A stretch of 64,000 bases of DNA from Siphonodentalium dalli. Its lineage: Eukaryota; Mollusca; Scaphopoda; Gadilida; Siphonodentaliidae. Shown here piece by piece: positions 19,535 through 56,300 of this stretch. The position numbers and the translations under genes are program-made. The first letter of the stretch is position 1. Every line of letters begins with the position of its first letter. The stretch spans positions 80,750,705 to 80,814,704 of the forward strand of contig CP136067.1 in NCBI GenBank assembly GCA_032622095.1. Reading direction: 5' to 3'. The notes under the pieces were generated by a model, which was not told the origin of the DNA, did not search any database, and saw nothing but the letters and a program-made list of their open reading frames with translations.

Positions 19535-19746
19535 TTAACCCTTTTATTACAAGAGCTGTGCTGGTGCTGCATTAAAGATCCTGTGACAGTACATTCTCTT
19601 ATATATGCGACTATCCCATATGGAGCCTTGCTTATATGTATTCTCATATATGCATGGCTCCCTATGGGAGACTCGCATATTTAAAAGAATGCATTCGCAC
19701 AGGGTTTTCAAAAAAATTCAGGAAGACCCAGTCATAGAAGGGTTAA
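19535..19746. mobile_element. TTAACCCTTTCATGA-type double-hairpin MITE
   Basis: TTAACCCTTTTATTAC at 19535 and 'atagaagggttaa' ending at 19746 enclose two degenerate TGCATTCTC hairpins. TTAA on both sides. Confidence 0.8.
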
Positions 19747-23997: not shown

Positions 23998-24257
23998 TTA
24001 ACCCTTTGAGTGCCAGGGGCCGATCTCATCGGCCCTAAACCCAGCTAAACCTACAAAATAAGTCTGTTAAAGAATATAAGAATAAATTATTAAAATTGTA
24101 AAAAATTGTAAAAACAAAAAAAAATATATATATGTTAGGCCAATGCATTCTCTTATATATGCGAGGCGACCTATGGTCGACTCGCATATATAAAAGAATG
24201 CATTGGCACAGGGTATATGGGTTGATACAAAAATTGACCTGGCACTCAAAGGGTTAA
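23998..24257. mobile_element. TTAACCCTTTGAGTGCC-type MITE carrying one hairpin
   Basis: TTAACCCTTTGAGTGCCAGG at 23998 and the reverse complement CCTGGCACTCAAAGGGTTAA ending at 24257 are perfect 20-bp inverted repeats including the TTAA. Inside is a single TGCATTCTC hairpin (about 24138-24210). The left interior also has the small palindrome 'ggccgatctcatcggcc'. Confidence 0.92.
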
Positions 24258-24263
24258 AACTGT

Positions 24264-24525
24264 TTAACCTGGTTTATCCCTTTCTTTACTAAATACTCAT
24301 TGACGAGTAGTTTCCTTAGGAAATGTTCAGATAGTAATTTTGTTTGTTGAACTTCAACTTATTAACTGAATATTTGCCATGAAACCAGCTGTTTCTTGTA
24401 TTATCTGATTTTCTGTCTGTTGTCTGTTTATGCATGAAGAACACCCCTCCAAATTAATAATAGACCATTCCAATTTACACTTTTATAAAGGAATGGGATA
24501 ACCCATCTGGTAAAGACAGGGTTAA
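24264..24525. mobile_element. TTAACCCTTTCTTTAC-type MITE
   Basis: 'ccctttctttactaaatact' and 'cattgacgagtagtttcc' on the left, 'gaacacccctccaaat' and 'aatagaccattcca' on the right, with GGGTTAA ending at 24525. It lies only a few bases after the previous TTAA element. Confidence 0.75.
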
Positions 24526-24732
24526 CATTTTGTATATGCCAGCTCTATATTCAAATGTAGCTCACCAGATTGATGACACACTTAATTATGTAGTCCTGTA
24601 ACTACATATAACCCATTTGTTTGTTATGTGCCATCACTGATGGTGTATAAGGTTAGCAATAGAGGTTGAGATATAGTTCAATAAATTGGCAGCCATTCCC
24701 CACAAGCCTGAGTTTAGAGTGCCTGTCATTTG

Positions 24733-24823
24733 CAGAATGAGGTCCCCAATGGGTGAATTTAGTGACACTATCCCGCATAGCGGGCTATCATCACCAAGTT
24801 CACCCTCTGGGGACCTCATTCTC
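24733..24823. mobile_element. GAGGTCCCC palindromic MITE core
   Basis: 'gcagaatgaggtcccca' and 'gggtgaatttagtga' mirror 'tcaccaagttcaccc' and 'tctggggacctcattct' around a 'cccgcatagcggg' loop. Related copies lie at 44156-44611 and 47812-47912, with half copies near 26090-26117 and 61898-61935. Confidence 0.82.
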
Positions 24824-25189
24824 TTTCGGCCTCATCTGCTATGGGAGACATAGACTCAGATTGTATGGGCAGCCAAATTAACATATACTCAAATATTTGG
24901 AGATATCTCTAAATAAGATAAGATCATCCTGCTCAAGACTAGATGAGGTTAAAGCGGATTCTATCACCGACCTGTGCACAAATCTGGAATGATACTGTCC
25001 TTTGTATAGTATGTTTCATGTCCCATGGACAACTAATTAAATCACTGTGTTACTTTGCCCGGACTTTGTTTGGAAATAAACCATAGCTGGTTGATTACTG
25101 TGTGATACTTTCCCCCCTCGGGCAATGCAAATTATAGTCAGTTATGTTGGAAGGGTGATGTTAGAAGTTTTATAAATCTGAACCTCCCC

Positions 25190-25355
25190 ATTATCTGAAC
25201 ATTTCCCACTAATGTATAGAGGAATCCTTCTGTACTTGTATCTTTCGTCTGTTCATATTACCTGAACATCTCTCAGAATTAATAATACACCACTCAAATA
25301 TATTTTTTTATAACTGAATGTTTTCAATATCACTGGTATAAAGAAAGGGCTTCAT
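25190..25355. mobile_element. TTAACCCTTTCTTTAC-type MITE, internal fragment
   Basis: 'ttatctgaacatttcccact', 'cctgaacatctctcag' and 'aataatacaccactca' are interior phrases of that family. No intact end. Confidence 0.55.
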
Positions 25356-25571
25356 AATTCATCTCACATGGAGATACTTCAAATTGTGTAATATCCAGGA
25401 TGTACCTGGGTATTATTCTTACCTGTGCATGCGTGACAAGCGTCTCAGTCATATGGAAATTAAGGGAGGGGAAAATCACGCTACAGGAAATATGCATACA
25501 TTCACAGAGAACTTATTGAGTACAGCATACATACTGCGATGTAATGAGCATTTTGTGCATAACATCAGATG

Positions 25572-25747
25572 TACAGTAATGCCCTAAGTAATCAAACCCT
25601 TAACCACAGCAGAATTATGGGTAACTTTTCAGGTTTTAGTCGGAAATATGGCTTGTTGCCATTCACCGGAAAGCTCTCACTAAATCCTGAAAAGTTACCC
25701 ATAATTCTGCTGTGGTTAAGGGGTCGATTACTTAGGGCATTACTGTA
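25572..25747. mobile_element. CAGTAATGCCC palindromic MITE with shortened right arm
   Basis: Starts TACAGTAATGCCCTAAGTAA and ends 'cttagggcattactgta'. The right arm lacks the 'ttccgatgaatggcaacaag' part, so the centre is asymmetric. Confidence 0.87.
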
Positions 25748-26210
25748 GGGCTATCATGTAGGTGTTTTAAAACAAAATTCCTTACTGGAACTGAAACTTT
25801 GGAATGTCGAACGTTATCATGAAACCCACGCAGCTCATTGAATGATTCAAATTAAAGGCATGTGGCTAGTTTGAACCCCAACACTATATCTATATTTGCG
25901 AATGTCTGTCCGTCTGTCTGTGTTTCATAGAAAATATATCGCTCCAAAGAGGTCTATCATGGATATCCATTTATGAGGAATATAATGGTGCAGGTACACA
26001 TTTTCTAAAGTAAAGTCTTTGGGTCAGGGACAGGAGAAGGTTCGAGGTACAACAAAATCGATGAATTTTTTTTGTCACCGATTGATATCAAACCCTCTGG
26101 GGACCTCATTCTGCAAATGTCACCATATTCCCAGGCCTGAATGCAGGATTGTGGCATTTCAGTAACAGATATCTAATCTAATATATGCATTTACTATTTG
26201 TAGATGAGAT

Positions 26211-26345
26211 ATGGCGCTACATAAAGTTTCACTGGATATTCTGGAGAATAATGTTGGGGTCAGTGATTGTGTGCTTTTAGACCCTCTCACAGAAGACGCT
26301 TTTATACATAACATAAAACAGAGGTTCAACCATGAACAAATCTAT
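26211..26345 (+). CDS. Myosin I exon 1 (first coding exon, residues 1-45)
   Basis: ATG at 26211 opens 45 complete codons, ending NHEQIY before the donor gtaagt at 26346 (phase 0). An acceptor-like tatttgtag ends at 26203, so the seven bases before the ATG may be the end of the 5' UTR and an untranslated exon may lie further upstream. The ATG at 26204 is out of frame and stops at 26224, so it would act as a short upstream ORF if transcribed. The next intron is 5,903 bp. Confidence 0.93.
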
Positions 26346-29300
26346 GTAAGTATTCATATAATAATGCTCCAGCAATGGATAATAATAAATGAGAATTAGG
26401 CCTATTGCAACATAGATGTATTCAGTCATCCAGACTACAAGTTACAACAACAACATACACCATCTAATTTAACATCACTGATGACTTTCTGCCACCGAAA
26501 ATAAAAAAAAATGAATGTCACTTAAAAACTAGACTCAAAATGCCAAATAATGTCATTTATTTATTGAAAACTTAAAGCAATAATTATTAATATCCATCTA
26601 CCATGGTATATCATCGACACTATATGAAATCATCAGATAAAGAATTGTCACTTCCAGTTAAAAACATGTAATTTCATACACTAGAATCTGAGGCTGCCCT
26701 AATTTCAAATACCACACCCAAAACTATTTTGCCCTTTTTCTTCGCTGATTTTTTTTTTGATCATTGTTAACCCTTTGTTGGGTAGAACAACATTCTTGTC
26801 GATGTACGGTTGACATTTATGTTGTTTACGGTAGTTTTGGATAATATTATGTTACCTTGTACAGAATTTTTTTTAAATCATCTCCAAAGAGGAAACTGTC
26901 ATTGGATATAATGAGGATGGATATTATTTGTATTATTTACATTGATTCATGCTTTTAATATTAAATGTTGGCTGTTAGTCCCAAAACATAACATTTATAT
27001 TAAATCAGAGCAATATTTGAGAGTGTTTAATAGCTCTGTTTGAATAGTCGGTTCCACCCGACTGTGGACCCGACTAGTTGGCTGTATGATTTTTTAGCTC
27101 ACCTGAGACGAAGTCTCCGGTGGAGCTATAGTCATCACTCCTGGTCCATCGTCCGTCCGTGCGTCCATCCGTCCGTCCGTCCGTCAACTTTAAAAAAAAC
27201 ATCTTCTCCTCTGAAACCATCATACCGAATTGGTTCATATTTGTTGTGAATGTTCCCTATGTGACTCTCATTCAGATTTGTTCAAATGAGGTCACTTGGT
27301 CAAATAGTTGCGAAGCCAGGGCCATAACTCTATTCCTCCATAGTAATTCTTAGAACGACTTCTTTTACTGAACTATAAGGCCATATGGATTCATATTTGG
27401 TGTGGATGTTCCCTAGTTGACTCAAATTCAGATTTGTTAAAATGAGGTCACCAGGTTGATTAGTTGAGAAACCAGGGCCATAACTCTATTCCTCCATAGT
27501 AATTCTTAGAATGACTTCTTCTTTTGAACCATTTGACCGATTTAGCTTACATTTGGTATGGAGAGTCCTTGTGTGACTGGGGTTCAGATTTGTTCAAATG
27601 GGGTCACTGGGTCAAATAGGGGCAGAGCCAGGGCCCAGGGACATAACTCTTTTAATTTTTTTTGTTTAAATCCATGTTTTAAATCCTTGCCCCCTCAATC
27701 CCCCCCACCACCACCACTGAATGTCCCTGCCACCCCACACCAGATCCTTGCAAGGTTCACACCATTAAAAGCCTTACACTTTAGTTATATGACATGCCAG
27801 GAGCTGCCAGCCTTAATTCTCACAGTGCTCACTGCTGTGTGTCCAGTCATTATAAAGTAATTAACTTTTATCTCAATATCCACATTTATCAGGCTGGGAG
27901 AGAATGAGGTGTGTGAATGAAATTTAATCCTATGTGTTTACAGCAATCTCAAATACAACTCTAACTGTTTGACAGTTTACACATTTTATAATAGTATTAG
28001 TATTAACCATTTCATTACCAGAGCTATGCTGGTACAGCAAAAAGACCCTGCACCAGTGTATTCTCCTATATATAAGAGAATACACTGGGGATCAAGGAAA
28101 TATTGTTAGGCCAATTTTGTCAGACATCCAAATAAATCAGACATGTCCTATTCTCGCAGGGATGTCCCCACATATGTTTGGGGAGGGGGCAAATTTCTCA
28201 GATTTGTTCATTGAGATGTAATTTTTTTTCCAAAACCAATTACGTATACTAAAATAAAATGAATATAAAAAATAGACCATTGATCAAGAGAAATGAGCTC
28301 CTAGTTTTAATATTTGTCCAATATTTATTATTTTATAACAAGGTACTAGTATCATGCCAGTGCATTGTCTTATATATATGTGAGTGTCCCATAGGTAGCC
28401 TCACCTAAGAGAATGCACTGGCTCTCAAGGTTAAGGAAATATTGTTAGGCAAATGTAGACAAGCATCCAAATAAATCACAGATGTCCTATTCTTGCAGGG
28501 ATGTCCCCATGGGTTGAGGGGGTGGAATGAGCAGATTTGTTAAATGAGATGTAATTTGTTTTCTCAAAATTAATTATTTAGACTAAAATGAATATAAAAT
28601 AGTAAACTACTTAATTTTTTAACCCCACAGATTACATTATATAAAATATATGCCATATTATATACCATTTGAAAGAGGAAGCTCCAAAACATTGTATTAT
28701 CAACTTTTCCAGTATAATAAACTGTGGACATGTTGTTTTTATTGAGTTGCCAAAGAGTTTTGTCATCTAGATTGCAGTAAAAAGCAAAATTATTTTCAAT
28801 GCAGGGGGAATAACTCTATATATTAAAGATGGAGTTCTTCCCCTTCCATTGAAAAGTTTGAATTCTGTTGCATTCTGGGATCCAAAGGGGGGGGGGGGGG
28901 GAAGTCATTCTATAATTTCAGTAGTTTTTGGCTCACCTGAGACGAAGTCTCCAGTGGAGCTATAGTCATCACTCCTCGTCCGTCCGTCAGCAATTCTTTG
29001 AACTTCTCCTCTGGAACCATAAGACCGTATGGGTTCATATTTGGTGTGGATATTGCCTTGGTGACTCACATTCAGATTTGTTCAAATGGGGTCACTGGGT
29101 CAAATGTGGGCAGGGACATAACTCCAAAAAATATTAAACATTGCAAGTGAAGTCTGACATTTTATAAACATTTCGTGGAGATCTGCTAGAGGTCATTAAT
29201 TCCCAATTACAACATCAATCTATTACCTTGGGTGACAGATTTGTGAAAATGGTATTACAAAGTCGAATAAGGGCATTGCCAGAGACATAACTATTTCACA

Positions 29301-32300
29301 ACATATTAATTCTTAAAATATGTATGGAAGAGCCAAGAACTAGTTGGCTTATTTAGCATGGAATGTTCTTGTTTGACTGCAATACAGATATTTTTAATGG
29401 GGTAACCTGGAAAAATAGGGGCCAAGCGAAGGACAGTTTCCTTCTTAATATGCTTCCTTCACAAGGACCATCAGGTCTATTTTATAAAAAGGTGCTTGTG
29501 AGATTGGAAATTTCCAACAATTGGGAAAGTTTGAGATGTCAATTGTGTAATTCCAACCTAAGACTTGGGAGTCTTGAGCCTAGTCGTGAGGGGACTTGTT
29601 GGGGAGGGGGGGGGGGTGATCAGTAGTGTACAGTTGGTAATTTGGCCACATATCCTGTTTAGATCTACTTCTTTTAAAGTGATTATGAAAAGTTCCAACT
29701 ATTGTGGTCTCCAGAGTCCCAGTCTTATCAGTCTTTGCAGTCTGGTGAGCGACCCCACAGTCATTGACTGTCTTGTTTGTTACAATATGCGACAGCTACA
29801 ATATTTCTCAGTTTATTTGCAATAATATATTTGCCCATGGATATGACGTCATATATGACATACTCACCCGACAAAGGGTTAATCTGGACATAAAATTTAA
29901 CATTTCTTATACAACTGAAACCCTCACATTCTATGTCATCTATGTATGCATTTCAGTTAAATTGGTACATTAATATTGATATTCTGAGTTCATGGTGTTC
30001 ATTATTCCAGTTTGCAAGGTATTTTACAAAATAATATGAAAATTTGCCCGACAGCCCCAATTTATTTTAGACCTGTAAATAAGAGAAACATGTATTGATT
30101 GTATTTTGGTTTAAATTAAATGTAAAACAGGTTTTGTTAAAATTCTCCTGGAAACCTGAACACATCATTAACAAATGAGTCAGTAATTAACTTTTGGCAT
30201 TGGTTTTCAAATGTTGGTTTTAATCGAGAAATAATTTCAGAAATAAACTTGATGACTTCATGTTAAAATCAATAAGCTATGGTATTGTTGATTCAAATTA
30301 TTGATTGCTGGAAAAAAACAAGATCATTTATCTTATCTGATCACGCACACAGTGGAAGTGCAGCATGATCTCAGTGGACCTCAGAGACTAGTCTGAAATT
30401 CATACTTAATCATCATTCTTCATGGCAACTGACAATCCTCATTATGGTTGAGTGAATCAAGGCTTGAGTCAGTCTTTGAGAATCACACACTACAAGGCTA
30501 CATAGACAGGTTACTTTATACTCCTCCAGCTATTCACTCTTCACATTAATTTACCCTGGCTGCTATGGGGAACCCCTCTACAGGCCTGTGGTGATGAGTG
30601 TAAAGTTTTTATGATCTCAGCTGTTGAGTCTGAATAACCTCTTAATTAAGGATGGGACATATAATTACCTGAGACACATTAAAATCATGCTGTCATGCAG
30701 GCTAATAGCTTTTGTTCATCATCTCTGCTTATAGACTGTTGGAATATTATACACATATTTAAAGAAATGCTGATGACTTCCTCATTTAAAGATGTATTTA
30801 GTGTTCCAGACCTCCAGTTACAACAACAACAACAACAACAACAACAAAACATATCTTATTTGTCATAGATTTCTGTTTTTGATTTTTTGATAAATGTTGA
30901 AAACCAAATATGACACACAAACCAGACCTGTGAATACCAATAAAATAATTTTTGGTGTCCCTCTAAACATCATGAAATGAATACATACAAAATTCAATAT
31001 CAAACAAAATTTAATCTTTCATGTAGCAATTCTCGTTCAAAACATATTAATTTATACACTGTAATCTGAATTAAGATAGATTTCACAAATATTATCCTTG
31101 ACCCCTGAATACATCTTTAATTAACCCTTTCATGATGAGAGTTGTGCTAGTGCAGCATTAAATATCCTGTGCCAGTGCATTCTCTTATATATCGGACTCT
31201 CCCATAGGGAGCCTTGGATATATAAGAAAATGCGCTGGCTTACAAACATTTTTAGGCCAATGCTTTCTCTTATATATGTGAGGCTCCCTATGGCACAGGG
31301 TTTTCGCAAAATTTCAGGAAGCTCCAGTCATGGAAGGATTAATATATATAATTAGTATATACATGTAAGAGAATGCACTGGCCTACTAATTCAAGGAAAA
31401 TATTTTTAGGCCAATGCATTCTCTTATATATGCGAGTCTCCCATAGTGAGGCTCCCTATGGGAGACTCGCATATACAAGAGAAAGGTAACACCCTGTTTA
31501 TTAACCCTTCTATGACTGGATCTTCCTGGAATTTTGCGAAAACCCGGTGCCAATGGATTCTCTTATATATGTCAGTCTCCCATCAGGAGCCTCGTATATA
31601 TTAGAGAATGGAATTGGCCTAACAATATTTACATTGCTCTTGTAAGCCAGTGCACTCTCTTTTATATGTGAGGCTTTTTATGGGAGACTCGCTTATATAA
31701 GAGAATTCACTGTTATAGGATCTTTAATGCTGTGCCAGTGCAGCTCCCATCATGAAATGGTTAAAGCCACATGTGACATAATGTTCACAACTTCATATAT
31801 TGAAGAAGAGAGACTTGTATATCTTTATATGGAAAGAGCAATCAAATTATTTACAAAAGAAATTGAATCCTGACATATCAATGACAATTGCTCTTCAGAT
31901 ATGATGTGAAGGTCGACCATAAAATACGAGGCCTTTGTGATAGCTTTTCTCTTGTGCGCTTTTTGACGTTACATATATAAGTGTATCAACCATTGTGACA
32001 ATGATTAGGATAAATTGGATATTTGAAAATACACGAATCTGAGGACCGTTTCGGTTTTGATACCGAATTACACCGGTGATATCAACATCAAATCTCTAAT
32101 ATTCAGTCAAAGGGCTCTAAATATGAATGTCTCTATTGTCAATCTTTGAACTCCTCATTGAAATTAGAGACAAAAACTCTTAATGACCTAAATTTGTGTA
32201 TATATCAGTGTATTGATTATCATGAACACAATTCTCTTTATTCTTCAGACATACATCGGTAATGTGGTCATCTCTGTTAACCCTTACAAGAAGCTGTCTC

Positions 32301-35300
32301 TATACACAAGCAACATTATAGATGAGTACCGAAGTAGGAACATCTATGAGTTACCTCCACATATGTAAGTATACTCCCTAACTCCAATAAAGTCATTATT
32401 GCTTCACTAAATCTCTATATGTGTATTAATTCACACCTATATTTCTGCTGCTTTGGCCATAGTATTACAATAGCAAAAGATATATCACCCCAGGTGTTAA
32501 TTATTGAATTTTGTTGTTCTTGGGTATGATGATGGGATTTGGGGGGCTGGGGGGAGGGCAAAGATACCCACCTACTACGGGTTTCATCCATTTATTTTTA
32601 CCAGAGTTTTTTCTAGAATTATTGGCTTTGTTGGAGTTGGTAGTAGAAGCTAATTTCGCACATTTAGCATTGTTACTCAAGGCCCAACAGTTTGATTTGA
32701 ATATATTTTGTTATAGCGATAGACCAATATGAGTGAAAGGATATACTCATATGATCGGTTTCATTGATTGATTTTCACCTGACCTTCTTGAACTTAGAAA
32801 ACAGCACAATTTTTCCTCCATACAAACATTTAGCATTGCCCACTCTCTCAACTGAGTGCCTTGGGCATATGGCACACGTAACGTAATACCATGTTAATAT
32901 CATTTTAATGTCAATGCTGCATGTACTACTGTAATTAGCAGCATGCAATAATGTCTATATGTTGGATGGCACATTTATTTACTGTGACTGTCTGCTACGC
33001 TTAGCATTGTTTTGTAAACAAATTCACATGAGGTGAGTTTGGAAAATACATAACTACCTTCAACAGTACTGAACTATACAGTGGCAACTGGCAAATATCA
33101 TTGTACAATGGTGTCCAGGTGGCAGCCACTAGTCTTTTATATAGTTTTAGCCAATCAGGGTTGGGGAATTAGAATACCGATTTGTCCAGTCCACATTCTT
33201 GCTTGGATAATATTCACAGTGTCTAAGCCTGTACTCGAGGATTTCCTTATTTCCGATTATTGCTATGTCTTTATTGTGATTTTCATCTCTTTTGAAATCT
33301 GACAATGAAAAGGGTTAATTGTAGATAAATTAATTAGTCAACATAACCACCTGACAGACCAATGATCTAAATTTGCTATTTAGACCAAAACAACTATTTC
33401 AAATGCATATGCGTACAAATAGATGCCGCATTTGTCTGATTTCGGTTTCTTTTAGTTGTCAAAATGTACTCATAATCAAAGTACCTCAACAATATTCATT
33501 AATAAATGACATATTCAGATACAACACCATAGCTCCCCTCTTATATATAAAGCTTAGTAGGTGTTGACAATAAGAACTGAGTAAAAATTTCAACCTTCAT
33601 ATGTAAGTGGTCTACAGTCTACTAGTAGCTGTCCAGTCTGTACGACATTTGTTGCTGCATGTACTTCTTTCTACATATAAGCCATCTGATGCTGTACATC
33701 TTTTAGTCTGCTTGCTATTTTCAAATTGGGTTATGAGAAAGCCACAATGGTCTACAATCCCAAGTTTTTTTTACAAATATAAGTCATATATATATATATG
33801 TGTTAATTACAGCAATTGTATTCTAACTCTTTTTTAGCTGTGTTTTTACGCAACATATTTAGCACTGTTGTCCTTGGAGAAATTGTACAATTAGGCGATA
33901 TATGGACAATATACAGTAATACTCTAATTAATCGACTCTCTAACCACAGCAGAATTATGGGTAACTTTTCAGGATTTAGTCGGAAATATGGCTTGTTGCC
34001 ATTCATCGGAAAGCTCTCCCCGAGAGCTTTCAGATGAATGGCAACAAGCCATATTTCCGACTAAATCCTGAAAAGTTACCCATAATTCTGCTGTGGTTAG
34101 AGAGTCGATTACTTAGGGCATTACTGTACATCATAATTATGCATCTCAGTTTGTCAAGATACGACATTGATTCCGCCATGAGAGCACACACATGACCAAC
34201 ACTTTTTATTTCTGTCAGTTTATCATTCCACTAAACTACACTAAAAAGGGTGGGTACAACTGGGATATCTAAATGAGTGTTTCATTCATTATTGTTATTT
34301 GGTGTGTGGGGGGGGGGGGGGGAAGGTTGTGTGTGTGGAAATGTTCGTCGTAAACATAAAATGACATGTTTACACATATGTGTAGCAATTCAATATGAAA
34401 TGAAATAAATATGAATACACCAGTTTAACCCTTTCATGATGGGAGCTGCACTGAAGATCCTGTGCCAGAGCATTCTCTTATAAATGTGAGTCTCCCATAG
34501 GGAGCCTTGCATATATATATAAGAGAATGCACTGGCTTACAAGATCAAGGTAAATATTGTTAGGCCAATGCATTCTCTTACATATATAAGAGAATGCATT
34601 GGCACAGGGTTTTCAAAAAATTTCAGAAAGCTCCAGTCATGAAAGGGTTAATAAACATTGATTTGGATTTCCGATCGAATCGTTTGTTGTGGTGAGATCC
34701 AGATGTCTTGCCACAAAGAATATTTAGTAGTACTGGTGTACCAAAATCCTCATTTAGGATCGATATCTTGGATATGCTCATAAACTGAATCATGCAGACG
34801 TGACTAATTCATCCATGCATTGTAAATGGGTAGGTTTTTGCACAAATCCACACAATAAGACACACACCACAGATATCCTAAGTACAACATGTGCCTTAAA
34901 TAGTGTGTTATCTAAGCGATTTAAAACATAATATTCATATAAAACAATTTTTGATGTCGATGAATGATTACAGTTAATCAGCGCAAAGGTTACAGATTTT
35001 GATTTTGATGAATGTGGTACAGACGAGTACATCGAAAAACATAAATAATAGATAAACCATGACAACAGAACACCTTCTGAGTGCCCTTGATGTGTTTCTC
35101 TCAACTTCACTATATGAAACCGGATTACACAATCATCTTATAAAACTGTATATTCAAAGGTTGTTGGTGCGGCTATATAAAACTACTACCGGTATATAAA
35201 AGGTAGATATTTATCTCTATCAATGCACCCGTTTATAACTTATGATTGTGTGCAGAATTTATGTAAATATGAACTGTGTCACGTCCATATGAGAGCCTGA

Positions 35301-38300: not shown

Positions 38301-41300
38301 AATGCCCTCCACAGATTGTATGTGTAACCCACCAGGTCTGCTCCACATCAATTAAGATGAAGATCTCATGCATTTATCTTAATGACCCAGCCAAGGACTT
38401 TTACACCAAACAGATGCCTCCTGTCTCAATTTATCTCAGCAGGCAGGCTCCTTGTTTTAAAATGAAAACACAAAATTTGAGATAACAAGATACAATTATG
38501 TGTGGTAACATAAACCCTTTCCTTACTAAGACACTCTTGACAAATAGTTCCCTTAGGAAATCTTCAGATAATAATTTCAACAAACCAGGAATATTTCCCT
38601 CAAATTAATAGAAATCCTATTGCACTTGTATTTTATGTTGGTCTGTCTGTCTGTCTGCTGCTTATATTTCCTGAACACACCTCCAGATGAATAACAGACC
38701 ATGCATTCCAATGTAATCGTTTATAACTGGAATGAGAATCCATTTAGTACAGAAAGGGTTAAGCCTTCTTTTACTGAATTTATTCTTTCATTCAGTTATA
38801 AAGATTATATCAGAATTGTCTATTTTTATTGACCTTGGCCTTGTAAGGCAGTGCATTCAACATGATACCAACCGATGATACAACTGCAAGAAGATTACCA
38901 TTCATAAATCTTTCTATACTGAAGCATCATTGATGAGTAGTTATCCCATTGTAAAATGTATAATAAGTTCACAAAACGACCTTACAGTAATGCCCTAAAT
39001 AATCGACTCCTTAACAATATCACTTTCAAAATGAGAATTCAGTTAGAAAACTGAAGAGTATTTCAGTAATGCCCTAAATAATCGACTCCTTAACCACAGC
39101 AGAATTATGGGTAATTTTTCATGATTTAGTCGTAAATATGGCTTGTTGCCATTCATCGGAAAGCTCTCAGTGAGAGCTTTCCGATGAATGGCAACAAGCC
39201 ATATTTCCGACTAAATCCTGAAAAATTACCCATAATTCTGCTGTGGTTAAGGAGTCGATTAATTAGGGCATTACTGTAGTTCTTTTGTTGCACATTATTA
39301 ATTATCTAAACATTTCCCTCAATAAATAGGACTCCTTCTGCATTACTTGTTACTGAAAACACAAGCTTTGATAACAAGGTAGGGTTATTTTAGGAAGCTA
39401 TTATTCATTTGAATGGGCATTTCAATAACACAACCAGTGACACAAGTGCATGTCTATACTAAATACTGATCATTGACGAGTAGTTCCCTTATATTAGGAG
39501 ATATTAAAGTTCAACTAATGGCCATATATTTGTTTATTGAACTAGATATTATCTGAACATTTCCCACTAAAGAATATGAATTCTTCTGCACCTGTATTAT
39601 CTTTTCGTATGTCTGTCTGCTTAAATGACATGAACATCCCTCCCAGTGAATATTAGGCCATTCCAGTGTAAAATGTTATAACTTGGTGGGGTAATCCATT
39701 CAGTAAATGAAGGGGTTAATGTGTTGGGAGTTGTTAGAAAGGATCAACAAGAGACCCATTCCTATAGACCAACTCTCTAAATGAATCTACATTTTTATAA
39801 TTGAATTGGAGAATCAATTTAGTCAACCCTTCTATACTAAATGGATTCTCCCTTTCAGTTATAAAAGTACATGCTGGATTGGTCTATATTGGAGGGGTGA
39901 TCATGAAAAATAAGCAGACGACAAACAGATGAAAAAATAATAGAAATGTAGAAGGATTTCTAGTAATTGGTATTAAAAGTTCAGATAATAAGTTCAACTA
40001 ATGACCTGTGGTCTCATTAAGATCAGAGTAACAAGTTCCTCATTCCATAATACAGTAATGCCCTAAATAATTGACTCCGTAACCACATCAGAATTATGGG
40101 TAACTTTTCAGGATTTAGTCGGAAATATGGCTTATTGCCATCATCAGAAAGCTCTCACTGACAGCTTTCCGATGAATGACAACAAGCCATATTTCCAACT
40201 AAATCCTGCAAAGTTACCCATAATTCTGCTGTGGTTAAGGAGTTGATTATTTAGGGCATTACTGTATTTAGAAAGGATTATAAGTTGTTTTATTTCAGCT
40301 ATGATTCAATTTATTTGACATGAACATGGCAATACACTAACCCGAAGATCATATATCGCTTCAGATATGCAATCGCAGACGATGCTTATCGGTCGATGCG
40401 AGACCGCAACTTGGATCAATGTATCATCATATCTGGGGAGAGCGGCTCTGGAAAAACAGGTTTGAATATTCATCCAGCCTATTTAGTGGTGCCGAATATT
40501 ACTGCTGTCTCCTGCAGTTATCCCAGGAGAGTATCATTGCTAAAAATCAATGCAAAAATCACATAAATCACACAATAAAGCGAACATAGGAAAAGCTTAG
40601 CTTTTAACCCTTTACCCAACAGAAGGGCCCTGTGCCAATGCATTCTCTTATATATGCGAGTCGACCATAGGTCGCCTCGCATATATAAGAGAATGCATTG
40701 GCTTAACACATTAAAAATTATAAAATTGTTAAAGATTGTAAGAAAAAATGGTAAAAAAAGATTTTTTTTAGGCCAATGCATTCTCTTATATATGCGAGGC
40801 GACCTATGGTCGACTCGCATATATAAGAGAATGCATTGGCACAGGGTATAACTGTAACTATCACAATGTGGTCAAGGAGCCGGTTCCAATGATATCCATA
40901 TGTGTATGGTTCTATTGAGACAGACCGAAGATATTTTAGGCTGTTGAAGCTTTATTTGGTCGGTTTGTTGGGTAAACTTTATTACTCCCCAAACCAAGTG
41001 GCCTCTCATGTAGCCAAAAGTCAGACTGTTATAGATATCTCATTTATTCTGCAAATCAAAGATATACACAGAACTACACTTGTGTGTTCTTGATAATCAC
41101 ATTATGGCATGAGTGTGTTGTTGTACAGCGATGGGTCAATTACTTACCCAAAGTAATTAATTACAATTACTTTTAAAACCCTAAATTACAATTAGTTTCA
41201 AACAGAAAGTAATTAATTACAATTACTTTATGAAGTAATTAATTACTTTTCAATTACTTTTGTATGACTTTCAAAATTATTTCATGTGACATTGTGCACA

Positions 41301-44300: not shown

Positions 44301-47300
44301 TTTAAGTTCCCAGATGGTGATGTGCACCCATTGGGTACCTCGAGTATGCATTGTGTCATCTGCCAATTTGGGGATATAGAGCAGCTACACTGAAAAAAAA
44401 AAAATTCTACAGACATTTCTACAGAAAATTAACAACTTGTCAATTCAATAGAAATTAGATACTTTCCAGAGAAGATGAGGCGTAAGCAGATTGAGGTCCC
44501 TAGAGGGTGAATTTGGTGCTGCTAGCCCGCTATGGGCTGGGGGTAGCATCACTAAATTCACCCTCTGGGGACCTCATTATGCAAATGTCCAGCACCATAT
44601 TTTGAGGCCTGTATTCAGTCTCAGTATATTCCATCCGGTATCTGCAATAATGAGCATCTCATTTCATTACCCGATGTAAATCTTTGGCCAATCATGTGTA
44701 TGTTTAACTTTATGGGTAATAATATTTCTTCTTGTGAGATCACCAGGTCCAGAATATTGAATATATTTGTGGTAATCTTCAAGTCTTCACAAACATCTAC
44801 AAATTTTTATAAACATTTATCTCAGGAAAGTAAGAACTAAGATTTTACCATGTATTAAATTAAATCTATAATTTTTCAGCATTTGGAAATGCAAAAACCA
44901 CTAGGAATGACAATTCTTCCAGATTTGTAAGTATATTATTATATTATCCCATTCAGCTCACAGTATTTGTGTTGTTGGCATTTCTGTGTGTTCACTGTAC
45001 ACCATATGCAAAAGTTAAAATAAAATAAATGATGACCAAAACAGTTTCTTTCCTGTATCTGAATTCAGTTTTTACATATTTAAGTTAATACAAGAATTAT
45101 TCCTTGAGTGGCTACAAGAAAGACTGATTATACCCAATCAGCTTGCTGAAAGTGTAACATTGGTATTAACTATTCTATGGCTGGAGCTTCCTGAATTTTT
45201 TGCGAAAACCCTGTGCCAATGCATTCTCTTCATGGGAGACTGGCATATATAAGAGAATGCCTGGAACAGGATATTATAATTTGAACCAGTGCAGCTCCCG
45301 TCATGAAAGGGTTAACTTGTAGAATCTGTCAAGTCAATTCCCACAGTCATTTGAAAATCATAGGTTTTCTATTGATTATGAGCATTGATACAGCCACATT
45401 TTAATTCTGCTTTTACCAACTTAAAAACTGTTTGCACACTTTACAATTCCAGAAGATGATCAAAATGCATTTGGGAAAATTAGAGCAATGTGGAATAAAG
45501 AAGCAGATGATTTCAGTGTGTAATGACATCATATGGATGGTATCAATTAAGAATGGAATAATAGCAATTTTATTTGCTCAACACGAAAAGAGCAATGGAT
45601 ATGCTATTTATTTTACAGTCCTTTTGTGCTATTTCACTGAAAATCTTAAAAATATCTATTTCAGGGCAAGTACATGGATATTGAGTTTGACTACAAAGGA
45701 GATCCTATGGGTGGCGTTATAACAAATTGTAAGTCAGTCGATCATTTATGGGATAACAGTGTTGTGTTTCATGATTTTCTATGGCAGGCTGCTGATTTTA
45801 CTGTTGCAAATTAAGATGTTTTGCAATGCTGTAGTGGAGCCGCAAATCGGGTATTTGCAACAGTATAAAACCAGCGGTCTACCACTGAAAATCACAAAAC
45901 ACAACACAGGTATCTCCATTCTAATTGTCACAATTATCAATAAATTGAAGTGCAAATGTCACTTTATCAGCAACATCTGCAAGTGAATTCCACCTTCGCT
46001 CCAATTTCAATAAATTCACAAAAACATTGTTATGTCATTAATTATTTCTTATCAGCATTCCCCGGCTAACATGGGCTACAGAAATGCCCTAAATAATCGA
46101 CTCCTTAACCATAGCAGAATTATGGGCAACTTTTTAGGATTTAGTCGGAAATATGGCTTGTTGCCATTCATCCGAAAGCTCTCACTGAGAGCTTTCCGAT
46201 GAATGGCAACAAGCCATATTTCCGACTAAATCCTGAAAAGTTGCCCATAATTCTTCTGTGGTCAAGGAGTCGATTATTTAGGGCATTACTGTACATGACC
46301 ATAATAAATAGACATTGGAATAGCCATACATGTTAACATACCCGATTTAGGTGGGGGTCGTTCCAATTTCAACCCTATCTCCTGCCTTCCCTTTTGGGGG
46401 AAAAAGTTTCTCCCAAATTCAGCAGACAATGAAGCTAACTTCATACAATGAAGCTAACTTCATACAATATAAGTCATACATATGTAATCTGCCATAATAC
46501 TATCGTAATGAAAACAAGCTTTCTAATTAGCCTTGGGCATTTAATAGCCACTGGGATAATTAACCCTTTCATGAGGGGAGCTGCGCTGGTGCAGCATTAA
46601 AGGACCTGTGCCAGAGCATTCTCTTATATATGTGTGTCTCCCACAGGGAGCCTCGCATATATAAGAGAATGCACTGGCTTACAAGGTCAAGGTAAATATT
46701 GTTAGGCCAAGGTATTCTCTTATATATGCGAGGCTCCCTATGGGAGACTCGCATATATAAGAGAATGCATTGGCACAGTGTTTTCGCAAAATTTCAAGAA
46801 GCTCCATCCATGGAAGTGTTAATAGTCACTGTCCAAACATAATTTATAATATACCTCTTATTCTATTAAATTAGCATGGACCCAAAGAAACCATATAATA
46901 CTGTTTTACTGACCACAGCATCATATTCACCCAGCAAGAAACATAATTATTTGATCCAGAGTTATAAAAACACATGACAACATCTCAAAAGCCATATAAT
47001 ATCAGAGCGAACCAACTGGAATATTATGTAACCAGTAGCATGTGCTTTTGTGAAGAATGTGGTGGTGTCAAAGACCATTTCCTCCTGGATGTATGTTTGG
47101 TTTTTAATGCCAAGATGTTGCAATAATTCCCTTTCAAAGAAGTGTTCGTTATTTGTAGTTAAGGGGTTCCCACGCCTGAGTTACATCAGGAGGTTGAAAG
47201 TTTAGACAGACCTACACAGAAAACTACTTAATTGATAAGCTAGTACACCAACTAAAGGAATCTATGCTATCTGAATATCACATCAAGCATATCATATAAC

Positions 47301-50300
47301 AATAAAAATGTCAAAGAGATGACTTTAATTATATTTTTTAAGGTTAATTTGTGAAGAGCATTTTCAACCAGTATAAAAAATTATTGGAAATGAATAACTG
47401 CCATAAAAAATACATGATCTGAACTAGTAAAATGCTTGAATGACAATTTAATAGATAGTCCAGTGAATTTACCCAGAATATTGCTTCAAGACTGTTAAAA
47501 AGAATGTTAGTGTGTGCTAGAAAATTGTAAGCATCCATTTTGCCAGAACTAATATAAACCTTTGGGCTGAGATGAGTTTTAGGTCATATATCCATAGCCA
47601 AATCCCTAGCTGACCAGCTATATCTACTGTGACCTATTTTTAGTTGATTGCTCCCTGCTTCAGTGATTAGCATGCATACCAACATTTGAGCTGGTTCTTG
47701 AATGTAACAGTTCTTGCAAAATGGATTCTTACAATTTTCCGGCACATACTAACATTCACCATCACCATCTTGGAACTTAAATCTGTGTCTAGGTCTCCCA
47801 TAGCAGATGAGGCCATGCAGAATGAGGTCCCAGAGGATGAGTTTGGTGAAGCTAGCTTGTTGTGCAGTGTAACATTACTAAATTCACCCTCTGGGGACCT
47901 CATTCTCCAAATGTCCAGCACCTGAAGCCAGATTGATTTATTGAATTTTCGTAATAAAATGTGTTGACTTTTTAAGTAATTATTATACATGTATCACTCA
48001 AATAATAATTGTTCCATCTTCTCGTTTCATATTGAAAAATAAAACAGATCTTCTTGAAAAGGTAAGCTATGCACTAAGTTTATTTTCTTGAAAGTGCAAT
48101 GATTTTGTAACATCATCAGCATTATCAGTTCTAGATTGAAACCATAATTTTTTTTCTTAGATCGAAATATAGCATCACTTTAAAAAATAAACACTAACTC
48201 GGTGGAATACTTCATATTAGGTTGCTGGTCAGTAGTGGCAATTTGGTAGAAACAGAGAAATTACTTGGCTACATTTTGTTTTTTTTATGATATTAGTTAC
48301 AGTGTATGCAACAGAAGTGGTCCAAATGAAGCTGGAAAGGTCAACTTTTGATATTCACCATTATTGTGACTGCGTCTTTGATTCCAATTTCTTTCAAGTT
48401 TTTGTTTTTGACCAATATCGGATAACAAGTTTACATTTGTTATATTTTTAAATTCTAGAACAAATTATTCATGCTAGTTTTTTATTTTTTTTTATTTTGA
48501 TAATTTTAAAGAATATTTCTAAGAGAAAAGTAATGTTAACAAATGGATGACTAGTTTGAAAATAGTGTTTTTTAAACTCTTCATAAAAGTCAGAATAACG
48601 TGGCCTCTGCAGAAAACCGAATAATAGACCCTCTTGTGAAAACTACAAACAATATTTTGGAAAGCACAAACCTACTAGATTGAAAACACCATTTATCATG
48701 GAGGGAATCATGTGGTTTCGAGTTGATGAGTATCACACATTCAAAATGGTCAAGGAAAAAAAAAGATAATAAACTAGGATAATGATATAATACATTGTAT
48801 TTTGGCAGCTACGAGCATATGCTATACTATTTAAAAAAAAAAGCTGATACCTCATTTGTGTCCAAACTCACCGTTGTTTGCTCTAACATTCTGACCAAAG
48901 TTGTCAGTCGAAGGATTCTCCTAAATGTATGGACTGGTGTATTCCACAAACTTCTGGCTGGTAACTTTGGTCGGAATGTTACAGAAAATTACTGATTTTT
49001 TCCGAACAAATAAGCTATCAACTTGTTTTTAAAATAAACTAGCATATGTTTGTAACAGTCAAAATACTATGCTTTGTGTCAATTCCTCATATATTATGTT
49101 TTTGTGCATTTTCACTTGCCTCAGCCATTTTTAACCCTTTACCCAACAGAAGGGCCCTGTGCCAATGCATTCTCTTATATATGCGAGTCGACCATAGGTC
49201 GCCTCGCATATATAAGAGAATGCATTGGCTTAACACATTAAAAATTATAAAATTGTTAAAGAATGTAAGAAAAATTGTAAAAAGTGTTAAAAAAAGATTT
49301 TTTTTAGGCCAATGCATTCTCTTATATATGCGAGGCGACCTATGGTCGACTCGCATATATAAGAGAATGCATTGGCACAGGGCATAACTGTAACCATCAC
49401 AATGTGGTCAAGGAGCCGGTTCCAATGATATCCATATTTGTATGGTTTTATTGAGACATACCCAAGATATTTTAGGCTGTTGAAGCTTTAATTGGCCGGT
49501 TTGTTGGGTAAAGGGTTAATGCATGGTGCTCACCAACCCCAAAACCATGTGATTCCCCACATAGTAGTAGCGGCATACAAATGAAAGTAATTGGAAAGGC
49601 TGGGACTATCTTGAAATATAATATTCTTGGACATGAGCTTAAAGATCACAAAAGACTTCCAATATTGTCATAAATAGCAAATCTACAGAATCAATTTCCT
49701 TTATAAAGTGTGTCAGTCTGTAATACACTTAGCTTCATGAAATTCATTCGTCTGATGCCCTATATAATTGATCATTTAGCTCTCTGAAATCATACTTGTC
49801 CCAAATTCTAGCAGATCAATAAAGTGATGAATGGATGTGTGTGTTACCCATCTAAGTCAACAATTCCCCGACAGTTCATTCATACAATCTTATGGATAGC
49901 TGTTTGCCCAAATTTATCTGAGTGCTGATTGGACTTGTTATTCCAGCTTATACATGTACCACAGCAGGTCTATAAGATAATAGAAGAGTTTGTTTGACAG
50001 TATATGGCCATACTGTTTGTGTACTTTGTTGTACTTACTCCAGAATGATTGATGAGCATGAATACTTCTTTGATAAAGGGACATCATGCCTTTAAAGTGG
50101 ATTCATCCGAATTAACGTAAATTTTTATAAAAGTCTGTAAAACAACTATCATTACAAGCACATGTTAAAATAAATTAATATTTTTCTTATTTTCATTAAT
50201 AGCTCTCGAATAACGAGATTTCTCATATTGAAACTATTGTTATTTATATATTACTGTTACAGCTGCATTGTCGATCAAAGTCCAATTAGTTCAATAACAT

Positions 50301-53300
50301 ACCAAAGTTTAATCAAAACTTGACATTAAACATTGAAAAAAGTCAAATCATTGAAAATTATTCTGAAAATAATATTCAGACTAAAATATTTGAACTTACT
50401 ACACAATTAGGGATGCTTGGTGATAAAATAAGTGTAACAGATTTGTTTACATAACACTGGTTTCAACAATTTGATCATAAATTTGTGCTATTTACTTTTA
50501 ATTTCTGGGTCATAAATTCATGCTTTTTATGTTTACCCATACCATAGTATGGTAAACATAGTGTTGTTGTCCAGATTGACCACTCGTCGTCCATCCATCT
50601 GTCCGTCCGTCCATCCGTCATTCTGTCTGTCCGTAGACACTTTACGCATGGTGCGATAACTCAAATATTTTCTATCTGATCGGAACCATATTTTGTATAT
50701 GAATTTCTCAGCACGAAAGACAGATCAAGTTCGAATATGGGTTTGATCCGACTATTTTTAACAGAGTTATGGCCCTTTTTTGAAAAAATATTCACTCTTA
50801 AAAAATAAAAAATAAGATTTAATTCCTTTGCTCAATTTAACAAAAAATAAATAAATAGATAAAAAAAAATATAATAAAATAAGTTTTTTTTAAATAATTG
50901 AGAACAATTTTTTGTTTTTAAGTCAGTAAAATTAAAAAAACTAACACCATTATAACTGCCAAGGGTACCCCGAAACTGCCAAGGGTACCCCGAGTCACCA
51001 CACCAAATTTGGTTTAAATCGGTCAAAAATCTTGTGTTACGTACTGGTAAATTTGTTTGGAGTAACATTAAATCCAATTCACCAATTCCATCCCGTGCCT
51101 TTGGACTACTTGGCTATTGATTAGGCTATATTATTTTCTGATGTCTCTTATGCCAATGTGCAGATAAATCTGATAAAGAAAGCTATGGTATCTAATTTAA
51201 AATAAAGATTCAACAATACACATCACATGATATTAACAGTAGACTGGGACATCTGTGCTGCCTTGCACAGCTGAAGATATCACTCTACAGATTGTCTAAG
51301 GTCACTATAAATTTTATTGGTATAATAGAGATATCAGCTTTCAACATAAACAATTCCTTTGATTTGTTGACAGCTCTGCTATATAATTGATATTAATGGG
51401 TCAGCAGTGAGGTGGCTTATCTTGATCTATATTGTTGGTAGAATTTGATACATTATCATGGTAAACTTAAATTGGACTCTCTTAACCCAAGTATTCCATG
51501 TCCAGGTTACCTTTCACATTTAACCCAAGGCTGTGGTGGTGCAGCATTACAGATCCTGTACCAGTGCATTCTCTTATATAAATGCGAGTGACCCATAAAT
51601 TCCAATAATCTGTGTTATGTACATTTGTCTATAATAGTACATAACAGTATACTCTATAATTCAACAGCAAAACTCTCATTTATGATTCCAATCATAGCAA
51701 TTTACTATCGCTAAGGGATGGGTTAACATTTGCCGATCGTGATCGGCCTCTCGTTTCTTTTAATTTTCGTGAGATCTCTCATTAAATTGTGACCAAACAT
51801 AAAATTAGAACAGTATAATATCTGCTGTGAAAGAAAACGCTTTTAGGCGATGATTATATGACATTATATATGCGCAGTAACATGATATTGCCATAAAACT
51901 ACCATAAGCGACACAAATGTTGTTCCATCTGTCAAGTTGCTAACCATAAAACGACGTAAATGTCCTTCTCATACTTTCCCGATTTAGGCAGGAGTCTTCG
52001 TTATTTCCGACCCATCTCCCGCCCTCCCGATTGGAAACAGTTTCTCATGAATTCTGTAACAATGAAAGACCAAGCTTCCTCAGTGCATTCATCTAACTTC
52101 ATACAATAGAAGTAACACAAATTTGACTGTCATTATACGGTCTCAATGGAAACAAGCTGTGTAATTAGCCTCGGGTCATAACCTCTTCGCTGCTATGACG
52201 TCCGTAACTATTACGGACGTAAAAGTGCATGTCGTGTGCTATATGGTTCGTATGTACTACGGACCTACTTCAGCACACTAGCAGTAGGCCATTAATCATA
52301 ACTGGAACTCAGAGATTGGTGAATCGGAATATCTGTATCTCAAAGTTTCAAACAGTGTATGATGTTCATGATAGTGAACGCTAATAGCCTTTCAACTGAG
52401 TCAGTTTTGTGTTCTTGTGATATTCCCGTTATATTTTTCCACTGGAAAATCGCAATAACGTCAACATCCCAGCATACGATGTCATAAAGTAATTTAGCAG
52501 CCAAGAGGTTAATGGCCAACCAACTATCCAAACATAGCTTATCTTGTAACGCCTCTTATTCAATTAAAGAATCTATGCAGTTTTACTGACCATAGCATAA
52601 TATTCACCCAGCAAGAAATGGATATATATATTTCACCCATAGAGGGTATAGCTGTAAAAAGACATGACAACATCTCAAATGTCCGTATAACAACAGAGCG
52701 ATCAATTCGCTGGAATATGACATCATCAGTACCACGGCAAAGAATGTACCTTAGTGGTGTCAAAGACCATATCTTCCTGGATATAGTCCTCAATTAAACT
52801 TAGTGTTTTTAATGCTAAGACAATAATACCCTTTCAAAGAACTTGTGTTTGTGATTTGAAGTTAATGAATCTCAAGTTGAGTCTGTCTTCACTTCATTGC
52901 ACGACTATTCAAAGTAAGCATGGACAAAATAAACAATCAGTTTGCGAGCGGTAAACCAAACAAACAAATGAACTTATTTTGCGTGAAATTTAAGCTTTAT
53001 TGCTAAACTGTTAAATTTTAAAGTTTTGTTATGCTATATGTAGTTCAGTCATGAACGTTGTGCATACCCTGGAAGCAGCAATCTGCGAAACTGGTCATGT
53101 TGACCTATGCTACATGGTATTATTGAGTTTAAAGTGGGTAAAATTAGAAAGTTTATACTAGTACATGTAACTATGAAAAATCTCCCGAATTTGAACTAGA
53201 TTTCCCGAATTCTGAAGTTCAATCTCCCAAAATAGGTTTGCCAGAAGTTAACATCTATGGTCGTTCTATCTGCCAAAAGATTAACATATAAAGTTTATTC

Positions 53301-56300
53301 TTTCTTTACTTATAGAGCCGAGTAGCAGGTCAGAGTAATGGAGAAAGGAATTTCCATATTTTTTACCAACTGCTGCATGGTGCTGATTCAGAACTGCTGA
53401 GTAAGTCGATTGTTGATGAAATATACAGAGAACTGCAATCATATCTTACTGACGATCAATCTTTGACCCAATTGCAATGGCATATGTAGAATGCTAGGTA
53501 TTAAAGTTTAACCGTTTATTGACGGGAGCTGTGCTGGTGCAGAATTAAAGATCCTGTGCCAGTGCATTCTCTTATATATGTGAGTCTCCCATTGGGAGCA
53601 TCACATATATAAGAGAATGCAATGGCTTACAAGGTTAAGGTAAATATTGTTAAGCCAATGTATTCTCTTATATATGTGAGGCTCCATATGGGCGACTCAC
53701 ATATATAAGAGAATGCATTGGCAGAGGTTTTTTGCAAACTTTCAGGAAGCTGCAGTCATGGTAGGGTTAAAGTGGAACAAATTGTCTGAAGATCTGAAGT
53801 GTGTTCTCGTTCTAGAATTCAGAAGACTCAAAAGAAATATTGTAGAGTGGACTTTTTTTTGGAGTTAACACTAAATCTGCTCCAATTGCCACAGTGCCTT
53901 ATTCCTCAACAAAACACAGCAGACCTACGCTCATTTCTTATAATCATTTAGATTTTGGCTGATTTATTCCCATAGAATCAACTGATATAATTTGTATTGC
54001 TTTTTTGAAATTTGTCATAAGTTAGCCCAATATTAACTTGATTTCTCTTATCGATCAATTTCACCACATTCCATTAAGTGTATTTGGTGTGTTTTATAGA
54101 GGTATGAAACACATGATCCAATTGGCAACTGATCAGTCGGCGAACAGAATGTAGTGTAAAATGAATGGAGGATAACACTTTCTTTACTAAATGGATTCTC
54201 CCACTCAAATATAAATGTATACATTGGAATGGTCTGTTATTCATTTGGCAGAATGACCAGGACATACAGTAATGACCCTTGCGCATGTGTGCATCATTCC
54301 GGGACTTTGTCTGAGCTTGTATTCTATCATTTTCTGGTCAATTTAAAAAAAAACTTGGCACATATATCAACCAGCATGGGAACCGGCGCACCTGCAATTT
54401 TGAGTTCAGTCGGAGTCATTTTGGTGGAGTTATTATCATTTTCGACATAGAATCGTACTTCCTGGGATGCATCTTTTGTTCAAGTCTGCATTCCGTCATT
54501 TTCCAGTCAATTTTTGTAAGACTTGGCACAGATGTCAACCAGCATGGGAACCTGCGCATCTGCGATTTTGAGTTCAGTCGGAGTCATTTTGGTGCAGTTA
54601 TTGCCATTTTTCGACATAGAAATGTTTTGTTTTTTATTTTAGAGCTATTAACCCTTTCTCCACACATTGAAGATTTGCAACATATAGTGAATATGCACTT
54701 TGTATCATATTGCTGTATTCTATTCCTATATCTTCAAACGTGCCATCTTTGTCATATGACATTTTGGTCAGCGACCTTTTATTATTATTCACAGAATCCT
54801 TGAAACTCCTGAATGAAACAAGCAGTTATAACTATCTACGTGGCAGTTTCTGTGATACTGATACTGTTGTCGTCGACAAAGACAACTTCCAGAATGTGCG
54901 TCGAGGGATGGAAGTGATTGGGTTCAGTGCAGATGAAATGGACTTGGTTTTCAAACTGTTGGGCAGCATTCTCAATCTGGGAAATGTGGAATTTGAATAC
55001 AAGGACAACAGTGATGGAACAGATGGATGTAGCCTGTGTTCCCAACAAGGTAATATTATTCATACGCTACTGAAAATTTATATATTTATGTCTTAATATA
55101 AATTACTTTCTTATAGTTCACCTCTTGTAAGAACACACATAATTTATTGAACAGAAAGATGGCGAAGACACAAACATAAGGAAAGCAAGATAACTACCCT
55201 CACCACCTCTTGCTGATTAGCTTCTTTAAGATATCACTTAACGTTGAACAATTCTATAGAGAGACCAATATGAGAATTTGATATTATGTGCTGACCAGAC
55301 CAATCAAATGGCGATGGTCCGCACAGATATCCCAGCCATGTGTTATCAGATCTGAATGATATTTGATGAGAAAAAGAGGGGCAAATGACTTTCGAGTTTT
55401 CCATTCTAGAGTTATCCTTCTTTGTTTATCTGCAAATCTTGTTCTTTTTGCACATATATCTCAGCCATGTGTTATCAGATCTAAATGAAATTTGGTGGTT
55501 TGTCATCATGACTGCCTTCAAAAGAGAGGCAAATGATCTTTGCGTTTTCCATTCTAGAGTTCTCCTTCTTTCATTATCTTAAAATGTTAGCTTTTTGTCA
55601 ATGCAAATATCTCAGCCATGGGTTATCGGATCTGAATGATATTTGGTTTGTAGGTTCCAACAGAGGGACAAATGATGTTGTTCACATTTTCCATTCTAGA
55701 GTTATCCTCCTTTGTTTTTCTGGAAATGTTGATTTTTCATCCATGCAGATATATCAGCCATGGGTTATCGGGCATGAATGAATTTTAATTTGGAGGCTCA
55801 TCATCATGACTGCTTTCAAAAGAGTGCCCAATGATTTTGTTGAAATTTTCCATTCTAGAGTTATGCTTCCTTGTTTAATTTAAATTTGGGTTCCATCCTG
55901 TCAATGCTTCAATTTTGCACTGTGTGGGTATGCCAGCACCCGAGATGCAGTTTCTTGTTGCAGTTGACTTAAGGTAGTATTCTCTGATATTGACAGAGTG
56001 TTGAGCTTATAAACAACATTATCACTCTGTGAGTCGGTAGAACATAAATAAACTCCAAGCCATCGATTTGACCGTCAGTCCACCACAATAACTTATAATA
56101 TTATCCATCCCATAACTAACACTATTTCTGGTTGGGCAAAAGCCGTCACATGATATCCAGGAAAAAGTCATATTGGACTCCCGAAAGTCATATTGGACTC
56201 CCAACAGTCATAATAATGAACTTACTATTATAAAAATTATTGGGACTCCAGGTGACGTCATTTGGTAAAACATACAGATGGATAACGAAAATGTCATTAT

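Follow-up and report, generated by a model that had tools for sequence, protein, structure and literature searches.

The question raised by a 64,000-nucleotide stretch of the genome of the scaphopod Siphonodentalium dalli (assembly GCA_032622095.1, contig CP136067.1, positions 80,750,705 to 80,814,704; hereafter the window, on the contig labelled C7) is how one double-hairpin module came to be housed in miniature inverted-repeat transposable elements (MITEs) with different ends. A preliminary description, made from the letters alone, had placed the module in elements with at least three different termini, all TTAA followed by CCCTTT, and read this as modular evolution, in which either the module is itself mobile or the ends were exchanged. 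The variety of termini was borne out and proved larger than described, with a fourth, non-TTAA form. On balance, the explanation we favour, with modest rather than high confidence, is that a double-hairpin cassette is a passenger in several unrelated non-autonomous DNA transposon families and that, in one of them, its shell of ends and arms was changed by nesting.

An abundant cassette with a hairpin fold

Within the window, a 20-mer hairpin word had 37 matches at a tolerance of 3 mismatches, whereas 100 shuffles gave none; TTAACCCTTT had 38 matches when 1 mismatch was allowed, where 8.1 would be expected. Across the genome (2,226,750,531 bases in nine contigs of 190 to 301 Mb each), the 20-mer had 153,121 plus 152,914 exact copies (total 306,035) and the outer module end (CCCTGTGCCAATGCATTCTC) 76,182 plus 75,820 (total 152,002), with a backward control of 0 for each. 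Searches of viral and prokaryote collections with the hairpin word returned 0 and 0 matches. Our sample consisted of 20 regions, each 10 kb long and distributed across the nine contigs, plus 40 more places on contig C1; the latter were picked from listed exact-word matches and are biased to well-kept copies near one contig end. Ten of the 20 regions, on contigs C2 and C4 to C9, contained cassettes, which were also present on C1 and in the window. Outer ends were compared in a set of 95, drawn from the window and loci L001, L005, L009-L028 and L039-L078 after six duplicated or array copies had been removed; other overlapping loci were excluded.

The cassette measures approximately 180-370 bp, is bounded by CCCTGTGCC and GGCACAGGG, and usually comprises two inverted palindromes of approximately 70 nt around a spacer, which is A-rich in shells b, c and d as defined below. 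In shell c the order is CCCTGTGCC, hairpin, GGCTTA, A-rich spacer, TTAGGCC, inverted hairpin and GGCACAGGG, although one shell c copy (L021, 9425-9676) has collapsed internally to a single hairpin. Folded as DNA, the standard hairpin of shells c and d forms a 32-pair stem with one T-C mismatch, with fold z-scores as follows: c, -16.2 and -16.8 (two hairpins); d, -14.6; b, -12.6; a, -10.3 and -12.2 (two hairpins). The inner stem reads CTCCC/GGGAG in the old copies of shell a and CGACC/GGTCG in the young copies of b, c and d; it is altered on both sides, so the palindrome remains paired. The outer six bases, CCCTGT, lie beyond the stem yet are conserved, as a terminal repeat would be, with the first base replaced by T in the left arm of shell a. 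Fixed inverted ends CCCTGTGCC / GGCACAGGG accordingly adjoin the arms of b, c, d and a-right, the a-left form being TCCTGTGCC, one base off.

Four shells around one cassette

Four shells were distinguished. Shells a (CATGA), b (GAGTGCCAGG) and c (ACCCAACA) are TTAA elements ending in CCCTTT, which matches the terminal CC[C/T]T motif; shell d (TGTGACCCGCC) has ends TGTGACCCGCCATATCAAATCCAGTCG without TTAA and instead carries 2-bp flank duplications. When outer ends were read blind to their flanks, 91 of the 95 fell in one of these shells. Scores assigned 89 to six arms (a-left 13, a-right 13, b 12, c-left 19, c-right 17, d 15), at a threshold passed by 11 of 1000 random 40-mers from the window, and a decayed a and a decayed d end were added by eye. 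The four ends outside the shells belong to L044, L055 and both sides of L073. One further cassette fragment in the same sample (L053) is truncated and has no outer end. TTAA is retained at both ends of three window elements (23998-24257, 34425-34651 and 49131-49519) and of many sampled copies, while the ends of other copies are decayed. Among two-ended copies of shell d, flanks matched over 2 bp in 8 of 10 (TA in five, TT in two, AA in one), five of the ten coming from loci selected by their flanks. Shell d may be a Tc1/mariner-type MITE, for which TA would be the expected duplication. A search of the window that tolerated 4 substitutions detected no shell d end. As a separate observation, a 1.6 kb TTAA element (TTAACTCATTCAGTGCCGG) is nested in a large shell a element at L018, approximately 4909-6497.

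Individual elements of the preliminary description needed some correction. CATGA ends were recovered at 31121, 34425 and 46560, whereas that at 53508 is the decayed form TTAACCGTTTATTGA, and 31121-31764 combines more than one copy. The shell b element has GAGTGCCAGG at both ends as described, with one hairpin rather than two. Both ACCCAACA elements, at 40604 and 49131, were confirmed, the first without a right TTAA end and the second complete. Coordinates are collected in Table 1.

Table 1. Cassette-bearing elements in the window and their parts (window coordinates)
Feature	Position	Strand	Basis
Shell b element, TTAA CCCTTTGAGTGCCAGG at both ends, single hairpin	23998..24257	-	motif search and reading
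b arm from TTAA MITE b0 (GGGGCCGATCTCATCGGCCC...), b0 interior mostly missing	23998..24066	.	read against b0 (C1 ~563350-563645) and L043
A-rich cassette arm, beginning at the internal TTAA putatively entered by b0	24067..24135	.	
Single cassette hairpin in shell b, outer boundary CACAGGG at 24213	24136..24213	-	
Shell c element (ACCCAACA), decayed right TTAA end	40604..40975	+	
Complete double-hairpin cassette CCCTGTGCC...GGCACAGGG in shell c	40628..40846	+	
Complete shell c element, TTAA at both ends	49131..49519	+	
Double-hairpin cassette in shell c	49155..49382	+	
Shell a element, decayed; cassette 19579-19704	19535..19746	+	
Shell a copies, compound, several hairpins	31121..31764	+	
Shell a element, TTAA at both ends; cassette 34458-34609	34425..34651	+	
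Shell a element, hairpin collapsed to one	45166..45315	+	
Shell a element; cassette 46604-46780	46560..46822	+	
Shell a element, ends decayed; cassette 53552-53728	53508..53770	+	

Module and shell histories disagree

Comparison of hairpins and arms revealed that the two parts do not share one history. The consensus of the 78-bp outer hairpin was the same in b, c-right and d (0 differences), differed at 1 position in c-left, and stood 6-7 differences from a. When arms representative of b, c and d were typed from reading and aligned in pairs, scores reached at most 0.21, against 1.0 for self-alignment; the a-left and a-right arms scored 0.27 against each other. Shells b, c (right arm) and d thus combine one hairpin consensus with unrelated arms, so module and shell histories disagree. 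The same pattern held for single copies: 16 letter-identical hairpins were spread across b (3), c-right (7) and d (6), while another group of 12 spanned c-left, b and c-right. On a hairpin tree, the four shells required 18 changes of shell, where the minimum is 3. The modular evolution that the preliminary description had proposed is supported by these results and by the nested intermediate described below.

Copies in shell a diverge from their consensus by a mean of 18-20 %, compared with 1.5-6 % in b, c and d, in which the median hairpin divergence is just 0-1.3 %. Two elements in shell a (L018 4446-8665 and L041) nevertheless hold the young interior type. We infer that b, c and d acquired the module lately and that its source was an old background of a-type. 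As in the coral elements named CMITEs, the interior is more conserved between shell families than the terminal repeats are, but the families here are not all TTAA, shell d being the exception.

A putative nested origin of shell b

Ordinary shell b elements contain one hairpin and half a spacer, and a single locus, L043 (591-1053), offers an account of this arrangement. Its left part is a complete 281-bp TTAA MITE, designated b0 (TTAACCCTTTCAGTGCC...GGCACTGAAAGAGTTAA). The cassette arm begins exactly at the right TTAA of b0 and matches the arm of shell d (TTAAAGAAKAYAAGAAAAAATTATTAAAATTGTA...), apart from one extra stretch of 20 bases. We also found b0 alone in L115 and L059, as a 294-bp element that ends in TTAA on either side and encloses no cassette; aligned with b0 of L043, it was identical in 240 of 268 ungapped columns (307 columns with gaps). 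The ordinary b element of the window retains only about 69 bp of b0, from which 12 bp of the inner end are absent.

The sequence of events read from this anatomy is that b0 inserted at a TTAA within the cassette arm, that its outer end and a second b-type end beyond the cassette became the ends of a new and successful element, and that the half-cassette then moved as one unit in the style of a composite transposon. The replacement of ends by nested insertion is visible in the copies themselves, and the transposition step presumably followed. Of the two routes named in the preliminary description, exchange of ends is thereby upheld for shell b, while movement of the module is only suggested, by its near-identical boundaries.

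Possible movement of the cassette outside its shells

The near-identical boundaries suggest past movement of the cassette as one piece, perhaps with TA as its target. In 12 of 12 b ends and 14 of 15 d ends the two bases immediately before the cassette are TA, as they are in L044 and L055. Copies outside any shell exist at L094/L114, L079 and L109, with TA on both sides, and at L083, with an extra A. When 26 TA-flanked ends were read, 14 had no shell arm on that side, 11 were shell variants and 1 was ambiguous; the 14 represent approximately 12 independent cases, as L094/L114 and L108/L112 have common flanks.

Three loci deserve separate description. A repeat of about 160 bp, often tandem, lies beside the shell-free cassette at L094 (18-172) and in many other places, on all nine contigs. 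At L089 (169-550), the left end of the cassette directly adjoins TA and the right end belongs to shell d, which may reflect either a mixed-end insertion or loss of the left arm. The L053 fragment (93-530) lies between two direct flank copies of approximately 90 bp (ATGCCCACTTGACTTATTACGC...CTTCTGTCAA), unusually long for a duplication and perhaps a product of break repair with filler DNA.

Several observations weigh against a cassette that travels independently and has a history separate from that of its shells. Shell labels are clustered on the hairpin tree (shuffled labels required a mean of 36.3 changes, and 0 of 200 shuffles were as low as the observed value), and the tree is itself poorly resolved, with 78 columns and 52 of 60 inner branches open. 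Nor does every junction show TA: the dinucleotide is GG in c-left (18 of 19), TG in c-right (14 of 17, with TA in 2), and in shell a mostly GA on the left (10 of 13) and AA on the right (11 of 13). Outer ends with SSWW flanks, counted with a 27-base word, number only 88 genome-wide (TA 51, AA 28, TT 7, AT 2), where a base-composition estimate for the 152,002 ends of the shorter 20-base word predicts approximately 8,000 in random DNA. To the right of several shell-free copies TAAAAAAA is still present, which gives them the appearance of truncated shell d. In a non-TA control, 3 of 10 ends were also shell-free, so TA specificity is not demonstrated, and comparison of these with the TA ends is confounded by shell d remnants. 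Joining the flanks of L094 recovered no empty site; copies of its left-flank repeat mostly stop about 5 bp short of the junction, which leaves this search undecided. The predicted empty d palindrome had 0 exact matches genome-wide, a search that would miss decayed ones. We place past mobility of the cassette as a unit at a little under even odds, and take any present-day independent mobility to be small in numbers.

Transposases and the CCCTTT ends

The piggyBac DDE family (PF13843) was matched by at least 128 stretches genome-wide, many in open frames, with some loci giving two; the count is a lower bound, as 116 of 649 candidates were scored. These stretches vary in frame length and score. 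None of eight piggyBac loci showed the full terminal repeat of any shell in the flanks read, which were partial and at three loci confined to 600-base windows on each side, so that ends may have been missed. The ends found at these loci were b-like at two (TTAACACGTTGAGTGCCGG, one end), TTAACCCTTTATCTGC at one and TTAACTCTTTACTCC at one, and none equals a shell. The coral CMITE paper gives CC[C/T]T as a general piggyBac terminal motif (PMC2872659). CCCTTT thus appears to be a superfamily signature, and the earlier suggestion that one piggyBac-like transposase serves all ends through it is unsupported, shell d not being a TTAA element at all. A separate transposase presumably mobilizes each shell, and for the TTAA shells this would be an enzyme of piggyBac type.

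Alternative explanations

The same cassette occupies all four shells, and its outer boundary is constant but for one base in a-left. Under the passenger explanation, it would first have reached the lineages of b, c and d as a discrete piece from the old CATGA-type background, when it was probably a TA-targeting MITE in its own right. Nearly all sampled copies lie in shells, so it is the shells that account for copy number. A stronger form of this account holds that the cassette is a mobile unit in itself, that it invaded unrelated transposons more than once and in two or more target-site classes (TTAA and TA/TT), that it now survives almost wholly as a passenger, and that its shells are replaceable vehicles swapped by nested insertion; this we hold tentatively, as falling somewhat short of an even chance, and independent movement is not proven. 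The main competitor supposes that the cassette was never self-mobile and was spread by recombination, template switching or capture as filler DNA during repair of excision breaks, aided by its hairpins and huge copy number. Shell-free copies are indeed rare and often truncated, some of their ends have non-TA flanks, the L053 fragment sits between direct flank copies as break repair with filler predicts, the L021 copy has collapsed internally to one hairpin, and shell b derives from nesting rather than from cassette movement. What such a process leaves unexplained is an outer boundary that falls at CCCTGTGCC in all four shells, within one base, and six bases beyond the stem. We regard it as unlikely, though a serious contender.

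Common descent from one ancestral TTAA element, with ends that diverged into a, b and c and an interior kept by selection, fits the TTAACCCTTT common to all TTAA shells and the hairpin pairing that survived the change from CTCCC/GGGAG to CGACC/GGTCG, and the same pattern is displayed by coral CMITEs (PMC2872659). Yet TTAACCCTTT follows the piggyBac superfamily motif, copies in b, c and d are young although their arms are unrelated, shell d is not TTAA, and b0 occurs without a cassette. The last two points led us to reject descent of all shells around a conserved interior, which is strongly disfavoured and in our estimation very improbable. Still less credible is an artefact of assembly or sampling: part of the C1 sample does lie in a tandemly repeated region, but duplicate and array copies were dropped before counting and the cassette recurs across the contigs sampled, as given above. 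The passenger explanation with a change of shell in b remains the best account of the whole.

Genomic surroundings in the window

Myosin head exons (PF00063, E ~2e-11 each) were identified at 40324-40563 and 54671-55093. They lie on one strand and in profile order, which places the elements at 40.6, 45.2, 46.6, 49.1 and 53.5 kb between exons of an apparent single myosin gene. Elsewhere, 5318-6163 contains broken reverse-transcriptase fragments (PF00078), the first below the curated cut-off of the family, and a decayed cassette at 5172-5337 runs into this first fragment. Highly repetitive frame translations (PHYTYPHYTY...) at approximately 3764-4508 point to a short tandem repeat. On contig C1, between approximately 727,000 and 926,000, the 20-mer is evenly spaced in steps of about 14.6 kb and then about 11.2 kb, which points to long tandem arrays carrying the elements.

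Relation to known systems

The preliminary description had called modular evolution of this kind unusual; a precedent exists. The closest, judged by described architecture, is the CMITEs of Acropora, which have different TTAA shells with CCCTTT-type ends around one interior more conserved than the terminal repeats (PMC2872659). These elements are approximately 100 bp with a 75 bp interior, at an estimated ~1,600 copies in one species. A match to a piggyBac-like element is reported for one family and the birth of a new element through CMITE insertion is described, while the origin of the common interior was left open by Wang and others (PMC2872659). The system here differs in its 180-370 bp double-hairpin cassette, its 152,002 exact ends, its additional non-TTAA shell and its nested intermediate (PMC2872659). 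Shells a, b and c otherwise resemble piggyBac-type MITEs in their TTAA ends, short inverted repeats starting from CCCTTT, non-coding sequence and high copy number, but no autonomous element with a full shell repeat was found in the stretches read at the eight transposase loci.

MER6 carries a conserved module of another element, the V-domain, within a DNA-transposon MITE, although there a SINE-derived domain occurs in MER6/MER6A, in contrast to a single module here whose four shells represent two or more target types (PMC6887750). Foldback-like elements such as Galileo have long terminal inverted repeats, and recombination and template switching have been invoked for their structural variety; that variation lies inside one P-superfamily family, whereas exchange here crosses families (PMC4168063). 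Among the titles and abstract openings listed by our searches of open-licence papers, we found no report of one interior common to TTAA and non-TTAA shells.

In sum, this is a very abundant modular MITE system, known in kind and new, within the literature covered, in crossing target-site classes and in having a visible intermediate. Within a single genome occur the common interior, unrelated shells of which one is not TTAA, b0 both alone and joined to the cassette, and the nested intermediate; change of vehicle and the very high copy number of a non-coding module are therefore directly testable. These results suggest that small transposons can be assembled from swappable parts.

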